Positions 13,849 through 42,653 of a stretch of DNA of 42,653 nucleotides are shown here, in pieces. Position numbers and translations under genes: made by a program. Each line of letters opens with the position of its first letter. The first letter of the stretch is position 1. The notes below the pieces were generated by a model that was not told where the DNA came from, made no database searches, and saw nothing but the letters and a program-made list of their open reading frames with translations. The DNA is taken from NCBI GenBank assembly GCA_025056375.1, contig JANWWH010000008.1, forward strand, positions 1 through 42,653, written 5' to 3'. Source of the DNA: Aquificaceae bacterium (GTDB lineage Bacteria > Aquificota > Aquificia > Aquificales > Aquificaceae).

Positions 13849-13904
13849 AATTAGTATGAAACACGAAACCTTCCCCCGTGTCAACGAGTTTTATAATTAT
13901 TCCT

Positions 13905-15119
13905 ATGTCCGAATTTCAAAGTTTAAGAGGCTTTCATGACCTTTTAGGAGAAGAGTTTAAAAGGTTCAAATATGTCTCGGAGCTCGTAAGGGGAAAACTC
14001 AAGCTCTACAACTTTGAGGAGATAGTGCTTCCCGTCGTAGAATACCTTGAGGTTTTCAGGCGGAGCATAGGAGAAGCAACGGACATAGTGCAGAAGGAGA
14101 TGTTTGCCTTTCAGGACAGGAAGGGCAGATGGCTTGCCCTAAGACCGGAGGGCACTGCGGGTGCGGTCAGAGCCTACATACAAAACAGGCTATATGCCCT
14201 AAAACCCTACACAAAACTTTTCTACGAAGGTCCTATGTTTCGCTACGAGCGACCTCAGGCGGGTAGATACAGGCAGTTCCATCAGATAGGGGCAGAGGTC
14301 TTTGGCTCAATAGACCCTCTCGTAGATGCGGAGATTATACAGATTGTGTATGAAATACTCTCGGAGCTGAACGCGAAGGTTATCATAGAGATAAACTCTA
14401 TAGGCTGTAAGGTTTGCAGACCCCCCTACAAAGAAGCCCTTAGCACCTATCTTAGGACGGTCGCCGGCCATCTATGTGAGGTGTGCATAGACAGAAGCGA
14501 TAGAAACCCCCTCAGGGTGCTTGACTGTAAAGTGCCAACCTGTAAGGAGGCGGTAAAAGAAGCCCCGAAAATGGTGGATTTTCTCTGTAATGAGTGTAGA
14601 GAGCATTATTCCAAGCTCAAGGAATACCTAACCCTGCTCTCCATACCTTACAGAGAAAACCCTCATCTCGTTCGAGGTCTTGACTACTACACGAAGACGG
14701 TCTTTGAGGCGGTTTCGGAGGAGTTGGATGTTGCCCTGATAGCGGGTGGAAGGTACGATTATCTCGTAGAAGAAATGGGCGGACCACCAACCCCTGCGGT
14801 AGGTTTTGCGGTGGGTGTTGAAAGGCTTTCCCTGTTGGTAAGGGAAGGGCTTACGGAAGACCCTCTTTACATGCTCATACCCTTCGGTGATGTTATGGAC
14901 TACGCCCTTCTGGTGGCAAAGGCTCTGCGCTCTGAGGGCAAGAGAGTGGAGCTCTCCTACAAGAGGGCGGGTCTAAAAAAACAGTTGGAGCTCGCCAACA
15001 GGCTGGGTGCAAAGTATGCGGTTCTGGTGGGTGAGGAAGAAAGGGCAGGCAACTTCTACACCCTAAAGGACATGGAAACGGGTCATCAGCTGAAAATAGA
15101 GTTGAGCCCTGCTATGTAA
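13905..15119 (+). CDS. hisS: Histidyl-tRNA synthetase
   Basis: LRGFHDLLGEEF, LRPEGTAGAVRAYIQNRL, MFRYERPQAGRYRQFHQIGAEVFG, LVRGLDYYTKTVFE, AGGRYDYLVEEMGG; start placed at the internal ATG 13905. Confidence 0.95.
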   Translation: MSEFQSLRGFHDLLGEEFKRFKYVSELVRGKLKLYNFEEIVLPVVEYLEVFRRSIGEATDIVQKEMFAFQDRKGRWLALRPEGTAGAVRAYIQNRLYALKPYTKLFYEGPMFRYERPQAGRYRQFHQIGAEVFGSIDPLVDAEIIQIVYEILSELNAKVIIEINSIGCKVCRPPYKEALSTYLRTVAGHLCEVCIDRSDRNPLRVLDCKVPTCKEAVKEAPKMVDFLCNECREHYSKLKEYLTLLSIPYRENPHLVRGLDYYTKTVFEAVSEELDVALIAGGRYDYLVEEMGGPPTPAVGFAVGVERLSLLVREGLTEDPLYMLIPFGDVMDYALLVAKALRSEGKRVELSYKRAGLKKQLELANRLGAKYAVLVGEEERAGNFYTLKDMETGHQLKIELSPAM

Positions 15120-37899: not shown

Positions 37900-39336
37900 A
37901 TGGAAAGGCTTGCTGGGGTTTTACTGCATATAAGTTCTCTACCCTCCGACTACGGCATAGGGGACCTGGGACCCTCCGCTTACAGATTTGTGGACTTTTT
38001 GGCAGGGTCTGGGCAAAGCTTGTGGCAAGTGTTGCCCCTAAATCCAACGGAGCTTGCCCATGGAAACTCTCCTTATTTTTCCCAGTCTCTCTTTGCGGGT
38101 AACTTCTTGTTTATAAGCCCTGAGCTTATGTATGAGGATGGTCTTCTCAAGAGTTCTCACCTTGAAGCACTAAGGTCAGAAGCTTATCATAGGGTAGACT
38201 ACACGGAGGTCTACAGAAAAAAAGAGCATATGCTCTCCCTTGCCTTTGAAAACTTTAAGGGAGGAGAGGACTTTGAAAGGTTCTGCGAAAGAGAGGCTTT
38301 CTGGCTTGAAGAATACTCAAGGTTTAAGGTTATAGGGGATAGGACGAAAAAACCTTGGTGGTATTGGTCAGGAGAGGAAAAACCCCCAGAGAGAGAGCTC
38401 CTAAGGGAAAAGTTCGTGCAGTTTGTCTTTTTCCGTCAGTGGGAAAGGTTGAAAAACTATGCCAACAGCAAGGGCGTAAGGCTCGTGGGTGACCTACCCA
38501 TATACCCTGCCCACGACAGCGCGGATGTATGGGCAAACAGAGAGCTTTTCAAGCTGAGGGAGGACGGACTTCCTGCCCTTGTGGCTGGCGTGCCACCTGA
38601 CTACTTTTCAAAGACGGGACAGCTCTGGGGTAATCCCGTTTACAACTGGGAGAATTTGAAGGAAAGGGGCTTTGACTGGTGGCTACAGAGGATAAGACAC
38701 AGCTTAAAGCTCTTTGACCTTTTGAGGTTTGACCACTTTAGAGGCTTCTCCGCCTTTTATCAGGTGCCTTATGGAGAAAAGACCGCAGAGAGGGGGTGGT
38801 GGGAAAGGGCACCGGGCTACGAGCTTTTTGAAAGGGTAAAAGAGGAGTTCCCCGATATGCCCTTTTTAGCAGAAGACCTGGGCACCATAGACAGAGAAGT
38901 CATAGAGCTCAGAGAACGCTACCAGCTTCCGGGTATGAAGGTTCTCGTCTTTGCCTTCTTTGACAGAAACTCCACCCACCTACCTCACAACCACACCTAC
39001 AACTCGGTAGTATATACCTCCACCCACGACACCATGCCAATAAAGGGTTGGTTTTATCAGGAGATAGAGGAGTATACGAGAGCAAAGGTGTTGGACTATC
39101 TGGGTTATGCCCCAGAAGATATAAGCCAAGCCCTCGTAAGGCTCGCCTACATGTCTGTGGCGAAGTACTGCATAATTCCTATGCAGGACATTCTGGGGCT
39201 TGGAGGAGAGAGCAGGATGAACACGCCGGGAAGAATTCACGGTAACTGGGAATGGAGGATGAAAAACATACCCTCGGAGGGACATAGAGAATTTTTGCTT
39301 TTTCTCTGCGAGACCTACGGAAGGCTCGCTAATTGA
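37900..39336 (+). CDS. malQ: 4-alpha-glucanotransferase
   Basis: AGVLLHISSLPSDYGIGDLGPSAYRFVDFLAGSGQSLWQVLPLNPT, RFDHFRGFSAFYQVP, LAEDLGTID, STHDTMPIKGW. Confidence 0.96.
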   Translation: MERLAGVLLHISSLPSDYGIGDLGPSAYRFVDFLAGSGQSLWQVLPLNPTELAHGNSPYFSQSLFAGNFLFISPELMYEDGLLKSSHLEALRSEAYHRVDYTEVYRKKEHMLSLAFENFKGGEDFERFCEREAFWLEEYSRFKVIGDRTKKPWWYWSGEEKPPERELLREKFVQFVFFRQWERLKNYANSKGVRLVGDLPIYPAHDSADVWANRELFKLREDGLPALVAGVPPDYFSKTGQLWGNPVYNWENLKERGFDWWLQRIRHSLKLFDLLRFDHFRGFSAFYQVPYGEKTAERGWWERAPGYELFERVKEEFPDMPFLAEDLGTIDREVIELRERYQLPGMKVLVFAFFDRNSTHLPHNHTYNSVVYTSTHDTMPIKGWFYQEIEEYTRAKVLDYLGYAPEDISQALVRLAYMSVAKYCIIPMQDILGLGGESRMNTPGRIHGNWEWRMKNIPSEGHREFLLFLCETYGRLAN

Positions 39337-39342
39337 GCTATC

Positions 39343-39418
39343 TGGTCGGGGTGAGGGGACTTGAACCCCTGACCTCCTGCTCCCGAAGCAGGCGCTCTGC
39401 CACCTGAGCCACACCCCG
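39343..39418 (-). tRNA. tRNA-Pro (anticodon CGG), CCA encoded
   Basis: Minus strand CGGGGTGTGGCTCAGGTGGCAGAGCGCCTGCTTCGGGAGCAGGAGGTCAGGGGTTCAAGTCCCCTCACCCCGACCA; 7-bp acceptor CGGGGTG/CACCCCG, anticodon stem CCTGC/GCAGG with loop TTCGGGA, T-arm GGGGTTCAAGTCCCC. Confidence 0.95.
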
Positions 39419-40714
39419 TCAGTTAAACATTTTACTTCTCAGGAATTCTTCTATTCTTTCTTTCCACTTGCTTGCCAAAAAGAGGACCTCTTCCTGGTCT
39501 ATGGTTTTAAGCTCTCCCTTCTCCATGATGACCTTCCCCTTGCATATAACCGTATCTATGTCCGAGGACTTGGCGGAGTAGACAAGTTGTGCTATAGGGT
39601 CGTAGAGGGGTTGGAGATGGGGGCTGTTGGGGTTTAGGAGAAGGAGGTCCGCGTCGTAACCCACTTCAACCCTTCCAGCCCTTATGCCTACAGCTCTGAA
39701 ACCTTCCTCAGTGGCGATTTTGAGAGCAGTCCTTGCGTCCATAGCCTTTGCGTCAAGATTTATACCCTTCTGAAGCTTTACCATAAGGCTTGTCTCCTCC
39801 AGCATATCCAGATTGTCGTTAGAAGCTGGTCCGTCGGTGCCTAAACACACATGAATACCCCGCCTCAAGTAGTCACTTATGGGTGCTATGCCCGAGGCAA
39901 GTTTCAGATTACTCTCAGGGCAGTGGAGCACCTTTGCACCCTTTTCTCTTATCATCTCCCTCTCTTCTTCAGTCGTCCATACCACATGGGCCATAAGGAG
40001 CTTATCTCCGAGAACTCCGAGAGAATGCAAGTGCTCAACAGGTCTTTTACCAAACCTCTCGAGAGAAGCCTCCACCTCCGAAGGCGTCTCCGCAACATGC
40101 GTATGGAGGTAGACCCCCTCCTCAAGGGCCATCTCCAGAGACCTCTTGAAGGTTTGGGGTGAACAAGTGTAAACCGCATGAGGGCAGAGAACGGGGAAAA
40201 GGAGTTCCTCCCCTCTAAATGCTCTAATAAAACTCCTTGCCCTCTGAAGGTATTCCTCGGGGGAGCTTGCTACCTTCGTGGGGAAGTCAAGCACGCCAAA
40301 ACCAAGACCCGCCCTTATACCTGCCTTCTGAGCTACCTCCGCCACAGCTTCCTCAAAGAAATACATGTCCATAAACAGGGTAGTCCCGGAGCGTATAGCC
40401 TCCGCAATACCTATCAAAGCCCCATCTCTGACGAATTCAGAAGACACGAACTCCCCCTCCAGCACCCAAATAACCTTCTGAAGCCAGTCCATGAGAGGAA
40501 GGTCAGCACCGAGACCCCTCAGAAGGCTCATGGATATATGAGTATGCATGTTGGCAAAGGTAGGAAAGAGCAACTTTCCCTCCGCCCTTATGATGTATCT
40601 CGCCTCCTGCCCTATGCCCTCTCCTATCTCCACTATCAAACCATCCTTTATGCCCACATCTACAGAAGAGGGTCCCTCAGGAAGTCTTGCGGACTTAATC
40701 AGAAGGTCAAGCAT
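39419..40714 (-). CDS. Amidohydrolase (S-adenosylhomocysteine/methylthioadenosine deaminase-like)
   Basis: LLFPTFANMHTHISMSLLRGLGADLPLMDWL, HTHVAETPSEVEASLERFG, HCPESNLKLASGIAPISDYLRRGIHVCLGTDGPASNDNLDMLEE. Confidence 0.92.
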   Translation of the reverse strand: MLDLLIKSARLPEGPSSVDVGIKDGLIVEIGEGIGQEARYIIRAEGKLLFPTFANMHTHISMSLLRGLGADLPLMDWLQKVIWVLEGEFVSSEFVRDGALIGIAEAIRSGTTLFMDMYFFEEAVAEVAQKAGIRAGLGFGVLDFPTKVASSPEEYLQRARSFIRAFRGEELLFPVLCPHAVYTCSPQTFKRSLEMALEEGVYLHTHVAETPSEVEASLERFGKRPVEHLHSLGVLGDKLLMAHVVWTTEEEREMIREKGAKVLHCPESNLKLASGIAPISDYLRRGIHVCLGTDGPASNDNLDMLEETSLMVKLQKGINLDAKAMDARTALKIATEEGFRAVGIRAGRVEVGYDADLLLLNPNSPHLQPLYDPIAQLVYSAKSSDIDTVICKGKVIMEKGELKTIDQEEVLFLASKWKERIEEFLRSKMFN

Positions 40715-40720
40715 GGCTTA

Positions 40721-40727
40721 TATTATA
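40721..40727. promoter_or_regulatory. Overlapping divergent -10 elements (TATTAT on +, 40721-40726; TATAAT on -, 40722-40727)
   Basis: Each hexamer ends exactly 7 nt before its start codon (ATG 40714 on -, GTG 40734 on +). Confidence 0.6.
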
Positions 40728-40733
40728 TTCCTT

Positions 40734-41441
40734 GTGAAGTCTGAAAAACTCCGAAAAATCTTGCACTTCCAGAACTTGGAGATGGAAGTCCTCAGAACTA
40801 AAACCGCCATTGAAAAACTACAACTCCGTATAGAAGAGGTTATGGAGGTTGTGGAGAAGTCCAAAGAGAGAAGAGAAGCCCTGTTAAAGAAGATAGAAGA
40901 AGTCAAGGCGGAGATAGAGAGGCATAGAGAGATGGTAGAGGAATGCAGAGGTAAGGCTAAAAAGGCAGAAGAAAGGTTAAACCTTGTAAAGAAGGCGGAA
41001 GAATACAGAGCCCTTCTTAAGGAAAAGGCAAAGCAGGAAGACTGCGCTATAAAGCTTGGAGAGAGCCTTAAAAAACTGGAGGAAGAGCTAAGAGCTCTCG
41101 AAAGGGAAAAGGAGGATAGAAAGCCCCTCAAGGAACTGGCAGAGCTTGAAGAAGAGCTCTCAGACATGAGATACTCCCAATCAAGGTTAAGAGGTAGGCT
41201 CGAAGAGCTGGAAAGGGAGCTCGAAAGTCTTAGAAGTGAGGTAGGGGGCGATTTCCTTCAAGAGTATGAAAGGCTCAAGAGGAAGCACGGTTTACCGATA
41301 GCCCTTCCTATAGACGCCTTCGGTGCCTGCGGTAGCTGTGGGACAAAGCTACCCTCCGCCCTCTACTCAAGGCTCGTCAGCGGAGAGGTGGTGGTATGTC
41401 CTTCCTGCGGAAGGCTTGTTTACTATGAAGAGGCTGTTTAG
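40734..41441 (+). CDS. Coiled-coil protein with C-terminal C4 zinc ribbon
   Basis: Long heptad-like helical region; C-terminal CGSCGTKLPSALYSRLVSGEVVVCPSCGRLVYY. GTG 40734 gives MKSEKLRKILHFQNLEMEV; the upstream extension reads through the divergent amidohydrolase gene. Confidence 0.82.
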   Translation: MKSEKLRKILHFQNLEMEVLRTKTAIEKLQLRIEEVMEVVEKSKERREALLKKIEEVKAEIERHREMVEECRGKAKKAEERLNLVKKAEEYRALLKEKAKQEDCAIKLGESLKKLEEELRALEREKEDRKPLKELAELEEELSDMRYSQSRLRGRLEELERELESLRSEVGGDFLQEYERLKRKHGLPIALPIDAFGACGSCGTKLPSALYSRLVSGEVVVCPSCGRLVYYEEAV

Positions 41442-42534
41442 AAGTTTCCTCTCCGACTACGACCCCTATCTGGTCTTTGCCCTCGCCTCTCTATGTCTTG
41501 TGGGACTTCTGGGTTTATACAGTGCCACCTACAAAGGAGGTCCCTCGCCCCTCTTTATCAAGCAGGCGGTATACCTAACTGCGGGCTGGTTCATCATAAT
41601 CCTTTTGTCGAGGCTCAACTTCAGAACCCTCTACGACTTAGCACCTCTGGTCTATTTTGTGAACCTCTTTCTTTTGGTGCTCGTGCCCCTTTTTGGAAAA
41701 ACTGTCTACGGTGCCAAGAGGTGGCTTGACCTTGGTCCCATCAACCTTCAACCTTCAGAACTCTTTAAGTTCTCCTTCGCCCTTTTCTCTCTCTACACCC
41801 TTAGCCATACAAAAAGGCTCTTCAGCAGGGAAAGCCTCATACTTCTCTTCGCCTTCGCACTACCTTCGGTGCTTACCCTCAAACAACCAGACCTTGGCAC
41901 CACTATAACTTACGGGGTCACCCTTACCCTTCTCCTCTTTTTCTGGGGTATTAGAGGTAGATACTTCCTCCTTGCCGGCTTTACCCTTGCCCTCTCCTCA
42001 CCCCTTCTCTGGCAACTTTTGAAAGACTACCAAAAGGAGCGCATCCTTGCAGTGCTTGACCCTTACAGAGACTACCACGGTAGTGGCTACCAGCTGGTTC
42101 AGTCTGTTATAGCCATAGGCTCGGGAGGTTTGTGGGGAAAGGGTTTACTTCAAGGAACTCAGGCTCACCTACTCTTCCTGCCTGAAAAGCACACGGACTT
42201 TATATTCTCCGTGATAGCGGAGGAGTGGGGGCTTCTTGGTAGTATCCTGCTCGTTTCCTTGATATTTTTGATTTTTTACAGAGTAGCCATCTATGCCTTG
42301 CGGACGCCCCACTTGCAGGAGAGGGCTTATCTCAGTGTCTTTGCGGGTCTGTGGCTTTTCCAGAGCCTCGTAAACCTTATGATGACCATGGGATGGGCAC
42401 CAGTGGTGGGCATACCTTTACCCTTTGTGAGCTACGGTGGAAGCAGCGTGCTTACCTTTTCCCTCTTTATGGGTCTTGCACTTTCTATTATCAGAGAACA
42501 AAGGAACAGACCCATAAGGTTTGAAGATGGTTAG
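41425..42534 (+). CDS. rodA: Rod shape-determining SEDS protein RodA (RodA/FtsW/SpoVE family)
   Basis: Multi-TM; GLLGLYSATYKGG, GAKRWLDLGPINLQPSELFKFSFALF, DFIFSVIAEEWGLLGSILL, GIPLPFVSYGGSSVLTFSLFMGLALSI; ATG 41425. Confidence 0.9.
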   Translation: MKRLFRSFLSDYDPYLVFALASLCLVGLLGLYSATYKGGPSPLFIKQAVYLTAGWFIIILLSRLNFRTLYDLAPLVYFVNLFLLVLVPLFGKTVYGAKRWLDLGPINLQPSELFKFSFALFSLYTLSHTKRLFSRESLILLFAFALPSVLTLKQPDLGTTITYGVTLTLLLFFWGIRGRYFLLAGFTLALSSPLLWQLLKDYQKERILAVLDPYRDYHGSGYQLVQSVIAIGSGGLWGKGLLQGTQAHLLFLPEKHTDFIFSVIAEEWGLLGSILLVSLIFLIFYRVAIYALRTPHLQERAYLSVFAGLWLFQSLVNLMMTMGWAPVVGIPLPFVSYGGSSVLTFSLFMGLALSIIREQRNRPIRFEDG

Positions 42535-42653
42535 GGGGCTATACTTTCACGTGCCCTTCTGTTCCTACAAATGTCCTTACTGCGACTTTCTCTCTCTAGT
42601 GGACCCAGGGGCAGACCACAGGGAATATCTTAACCTCCTCCTCAGAGAGCTTG
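42527..42653 (+). CDS. hemW: HemW/HemN-like radical SAM protein, 5' end only
   Basis: ATG 42527: MVRGLYFHVPFCSYKCPYCDFLSLVDPGADHREYLNLLLREL, with CxxxCxxC motif; truncated by the window edge. Confidence 0.85.
   Translation, partial: MVRGLYFHVPFCSYKCPYCDFLSLVDPGADHREYLNLLLREL

Follow-up and report, generated by a model that had tools for sequence, protein, structure and literature searches.

A candidate -10-only bidirectional promoter filling the 19 bp between two divergent start codons in an Aquificaceae genus

Two divergent genes in the genome of a thermophilic Aquificaceae bacterium (G000; 1.34 Mb) have start codons separated by only 19 bp, which raises the question of how both are transcribed and where their mRNAs begin. 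Within the window—the whole stretch of 42,653 nt analysed here—an amidohydrolase-family gene (deaminase-like, TRZ/ATZ group; 39419–40714, minus strand; Pfam PF01979, E = 8.4e-77; best NCBIfam match NF006549) lies head-to-head with a gene for a coiled-coil C4 zinc-ribbon protein (40734–41441, plus strand; Pfam PF02591, E = 2.9e-9). A rodA-like gene (41425–42534, plus strand; TIGR02210, 339 bits against a cut-off of 336.7; start codon picked by eye) overlaps the 3′ end of the zinc-ribbon gene, the two belonging to one unit. On the minus strand, the first base of a tRNA-Pro(CGG) gene (39343–39418; ARAGORN) directly follows the amidohydrolase stop codon. This tRNA gene is found 3′ of the amidohydrolase in 12 of 12 congeners with the full locus, including those whose zinc-ribbon gene has been relocated, and the same order occurs in none of the seven other Aquificaceae genera checked. 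The processing of the junction (39343–39421) is of interest, RNase P RNA being reportedly absent in Aquificaceae (PMC4227106).

Sequence and geometry of the gap

Read directly from the sequence, the minus-strand ATG appears as CAT at 40712–40714, the gap spans 40715–40733 and the plus-strand GTG occupies 40734–40736. From its sequence and its conservation among congeners, the 19-bp gap (GGCTTATATTATATTCCTT) is a predicted intergenic promoter assigned to neither strand in particular. On the same grounds, it holds a putative -10 box for either gene: TATTAT on the plus strand (40721–40726), with one mismatch to the consensus, 7 nt 5′ of the zinc-ribbon GTG, and TATAAT on the minus strand (40722–40727), 7 nt 5′ of the amidohydrolase ATG. 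An earlier note on this DNA had given these coordinates and both 7-nt spacings, which proved exact on re-reading. The two boxes overlap by 5 bp (40722–40726), and their -7T and -11A positions are reciprocal, at 40726 and 40722, as in a shared -10 element. In leaderless genes, a TANNNT box precedes the start codon by about 12 bp (PMC3160421; for Deinococcus-Thermus, PMC12340547), and here the first T of either box stands at a distance of 13 bp from the respective start codon, in agreement with that class. The core of the gap, TATATTATA, is a near-perfect 9-bp palindrome that recurs at other genes. Scanning 39000–42653 for promoters returned no -35/-10 pair, and no -35 element is evident.

Conservation and rearrangement among congeners

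A contig scan for relatives returned only two matches, both Aquificaceae MAGs. The start of the zinc-ribbon gene is visible in 13 genomes of the genus, the window included, and the merged box is present in all ten of them that have a head-to-head amidohydrolase (10 of 13 Aquificaceae congeners, again with the window). The spacer comparison covered nine of the ten coupled genomes, with G013 left out as nearly identical to G003. Among the eight congeners with a 19-bp spacer, mean majority conservation was 0.92 within the spacer, lowered mainly by one genome (G012), as compared to 0.64 and 0.57 at the flanking third codon positions. In G012, the box is shifted by one or two bases, placing TATTAT 6 nt from the GTG and TATAAT 8 nt from the ATG in a spacer that is still 19 bp, while G009 has an 18-bp spacer and gaps of 6 and 7 nt. 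That both genomes keep gaps of 6–8 nt despite the shift or the shorter spacer counts in favour of a shared promoter. The plus-strand TATTAT is kept 6–7 nt from the GTG in 12 of 12 congeners with the gene start, three of which have a different neighbour, and the minus-strand TATAAT is kept 7–8 nt from the ATG in coupled congeners. Motif and spacings are hence retained in syntenic relatives (gaps of 6–8 nt in coupled congeners), where the earlier note had proposed to look for them.

At the family level, the pattern CAYN7ATTATAN6RTG had 54 matches, several of which look coding, in the 23 genomes searched, against 6 for the reversed pattern, an excess that lends weak support to the shared-box layout. 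One genome has CATAGGGAATATTATAGCTTTTGTG at two places, letter for letter (G007:C1:31590-31614 and 462394-462418), and such a promoter may here belong to an element that has been duplicated or is mobile.

Conservation of a near-palindrome cannot separate the strands, so relatives in which the two genes have been uncoupled provide the best evidence for a merged box serving both. In G002, G008 and G011, the zinc-ribbon gene lies beside another neighbour with TATTAT still 6–7 nt from its GTG, and G008 retains GGCTTATATTATAT 5′ of this codon. Uncoupled amidohydrolase genes have TATAAT 8 nt (G005) and 6 nt (G008) from the ATG; the same hexamer stands 8 nt from the ATG in G014, which belongs to another genus, and TAAAAT at 7–9 nt occurs in several further genera. 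The exception is G002, with TATAAT 12 nt from an amidohydrolase start that is a GTG. In the amidohydrolase tree, G002 groups with the coupled G006 (support 86/90), with the trees of both proteins resolving too weakly to prove the uncoupling secondary. As both genes have boxes of their own when uncoupled, each appears to need such a box itself, and the merged box appears to serve both, the case for the minus-strand gene resting on these uncoupled relatives.

Recurrence in the genome and alternative readings

Two samples, 800 kb from the closed genome of the relative G006 and about 380 kb from G000, served to determine how prevalent such boxes are. In G006, TAWAAT before candidate starts showed a sharp peak at 6–9 nt, the position also taken by the window boxes, with 35, 47, 39 and 21 occurrences, as compared to mostly 5–13 farther out. 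It stands 6–9 nt before the start of 142 of 751 called genes in G006 and 55 of 362 in G000 (15–19%). Of the 161 head-to-head pairs in both samples, 46 carried -10-like boxes 6–9 nt before both starts, against 3, 11, 6, 7, 8 and 9 pairs in six control gap windows. For pairs whose starts are separated by 30 bp or less, the count was 20 double-box pairs against 1, 3, 1, 1, 0 and 0 in the controls. Sixteen of these 20 lie at 15–21 bp. Some of the sixteen are expected to be coincidental or to reflect wrongly called starts, and two pairs look orthologous between the samples, so that not all are independent. The window's own pair is absent from the count of 161 (an in-frame ATG at 40548 extends the called ORF), while its G006 ortholog (L087) is included. 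Judged by its conservation and by these counts, the window layout is non-chance; it appears to be one instance of a compact design that is used repeatedly. The earlier note had regarded the combination as an extreme case; as a one-off, this was not borne out, similar pairs recurring in the genus.

Another merged -10 box built in this way (e.g., CATTGGGTATAATATAGCCCATG) lies between mazG and a gene for a 401-aa hypothetical protein (L106 9157-9174; L091 8769-8788) and is conserved in 10 congeners; the mazG TATAAT is kept at 6–8 nt in three genomes whose layout is different or cannot be made out (G002, G004 and G005). Further merged-box pairs were noted at L086 3505-3522, L085 18949-18968 and L142 2046-2066, comprising pdxJ with a gene of unknown function, a SurA-like with an SBF transporter gene (G006), and an IF-2B-family with an amidase gene (another genus). 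Orthologous-looking pairs in G006 (L081 11307-11325) and G000 (L122 1701-1719), of the form CAT..TATAATTTTA..CATG, have a smaller box overlap, which suggests a second spacing class at 15–17 bp. The window itself contains another head-to-head pair at 13870–13910 (coordinates of the strand read there), with TATAAT 7 nt from an ATG and a neighbouring ORF about 20 bp off. In close divergent pairs, the best -35 match scores were not above those at control spacings. As a longer motif, TATAATATA occurred in 21% of close divergent pairs and in 5–17% of other classes, the numbers being too small to mark it as a special feature of such pairs.

The reading of the gap as a promoter for two leaderless genes depends on the start codons. 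The earlier note had named a zinc-ribbon start at another codon as an outcome that would speak against it, and an in-frame ATG that the note does not mention exists at 40713–40715, overlapping the minus-strand ATG, from which the protein would be 7 residues longer. Were it used, the mRNA would be leadered and would arise from an upstream promoter; an SD-like AGAAGGT (40701–40707) ends 5 nt before this ATG and the frame is open upstream. We rejected this start, and hold such an arrangement to be very improbable, given that the codon is ATT in G006, is out of frame in G009 owing to a 1-nt length change, and is absent in G011, which has an in-frame stop codon just 5′ of the box. The apparent Shine-Dalgarno sequence, moreover, consists of amidohydrolase codons for DLLIK. 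The GTG, by contrast, was found in every relative compared, is the sole start common to congeners and yields an N-terminus matching that of other genera; no Shine-Dalgarno sequence lies 5′ of it, as in leaderless genes. On the minus strand, congeners share the N-terminus MxDLLIKxA, and a TAA two codons 5′ of the ATG implies that the amidohydrolase does not start farther upstream. An AAGGA 14 nt 5′ of this ATG is not kept in most relatives, and this start, too, is taken to be free of a Shine-Dalgarno sequence.

With the GTG and ATG in place, the box might still drive one direction only, the other gene having a leader and a promoter inside its neighbour's coding sequence. A near-symmetrical TATAAT automatically yields a similar hexamer on the opposite strand, and here the minus box lies almost inside the plus box, leaving coupled genomes uninformative as to strand. 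The 12-nt distance in G002, the lack of an evident -35 element and the mismatch in the plus box also count against a bidirectional promoter. We nevertheless consider a one-way promoter unlikely, since the uncoupled genes each keep or have their own box at 6–8 nt, the promoter scan returned no alternative pair in the searched interval and neither start is served by a Shine-Dalgarno sequence. Even less credence is due to the palindrome being the operator of a dimeric regulator, with an incidental likeness to a -10 box: its near-perfect symmetry and its recurrence are compatible with an operator, but what recurs is TAWAAT at a constant 6–9 nt from the start in 15–19% of genes, as for a core promoter, and many of its instances are not palindromic.

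A probable shared promoter for two leaderless mRNAs and its known counterparts

Together, these data make it quite probable that the 19-bp gap is a -10-only bidirectional promoter of the sigma-70 type producing two leaderless mRNAs, and they support the earlier note's reading of shared -10 boxes with double leaderless initiation. RNA polymerase would bind the near-palindrome either way round and melt it. The start of transcription would fall about 8 nt past the box's final base, on the initial A of the amidohydrolase start codon in one direction or on the initial G of the zinc-ribbon start codon in the other, and both mRNAs, being leaderless, would be translated without a Shine-Dalgarno sequence. 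The geometry predicts divergent transcription start sites (TSSs) 18–20 bp apart. The canonical positions, 40733 and 40715, are T and C on their respective strands, and the next bases out are G at 40734 and A at 40714; as both are purines and open the start codons, starts at 40734 and 40714, 20 bp apart, appear more likely. By ancestry or selection, each gene may have had its own leaderless box, the two having merged into one at this locus.

The earlier note further held that this layout forces competition between the amidohydrolase–tRNA-Pro unit and the zinc-ribbon/rodA/hemW unit. Two polymerases could presumably not bind both ways at once, but "forces" is too strong in view of Escherichia coli data: at all five bidirectional promoters tested, transcription at the basal level was too low for the two directions to compete, and interference arose only upon strong activation (PMC12825309). 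By analogy, competition here is possible rather than established.

With somewhat less assurance, we favour the view that, in this genus and perhaps the family, such pairing is genome-wide, a -10-only near-palindrome of ~15–21 bp making up all the DNA between the start codons of many head-to-head genes and giving rise to two leaderless mRNAs. If true, two start codons would effectively be the two ends of a single promoter. With its recurrent pairs, some of them broken up by rearrangement, the genus offers a natural set for studying how polymerase chooses direction without a -35 element, whether the members of a pair are regulated jointly or compete, and what course the evolution of gene order takes once a single promoter serves two start codons.

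Bidirectional promoters with overlapping symmetric -10 elements were reportedly described by Warman et al. in Nat Microbiol in 2021. The commonest bacterial bidirectional promoters have reciprocal -7T/-11A positions and TSSs 18 bp apart (PMC10268837; PMC12825309), within an overall range of about 10–23 bp. The window pair resembles them in its single near-symmetrical -10 with reciprocal -7/-11 positions, and its expected separation of 18–20 bp falls within the reported range. It differs in that both expected TSSs lie on start codons and the promoter is the whole intergenic region; the word "leaderless" is absent from both texts (PMC10268837; PMC12825309).

For Aquificae, a 2011 survey had already predicted a wealth of leaderless genes with a TAtaaT box, at 20.7–32.4% in two genomes (PMC3160421). 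The genes studied here share with that class (PMC3160421; PMC12340547) a box 6–9 nt from the start, the lack of a Shine-Dalgarno sequence and the TAtaaT form given for Aquificae, whereas those surveys treat single genes, without mention of bidirectional or divergent sharing. EcoRV-type promoters (PMC5333194) likewise serve divergent genes with overlapping core promoters, but the C transcript is not leaderless and the pair is controlled by the C regulator. The lysG/lysE pair of Mycobacterium tuberculosis (PMC5648196) is also divergent, with overlapping -10 and -35 elements and a leaderless lysE transcript; there, however, the gap is 108 bp and the leaderless transcript comes from a second, separate promoter. 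Both ingredients are known, and their recurrent, conserved combination appears unreported: symmetric -10 elements with leaderless pairs were not found as a recurrent combination in the searchable literature, which leaves out most subscription journals. Symmetric -10 promoters and leaderless mRNAs would here be joined at their minimal limit, in a bidirectional promoter that is complete and yet flanked by no untranslated region in either direction.
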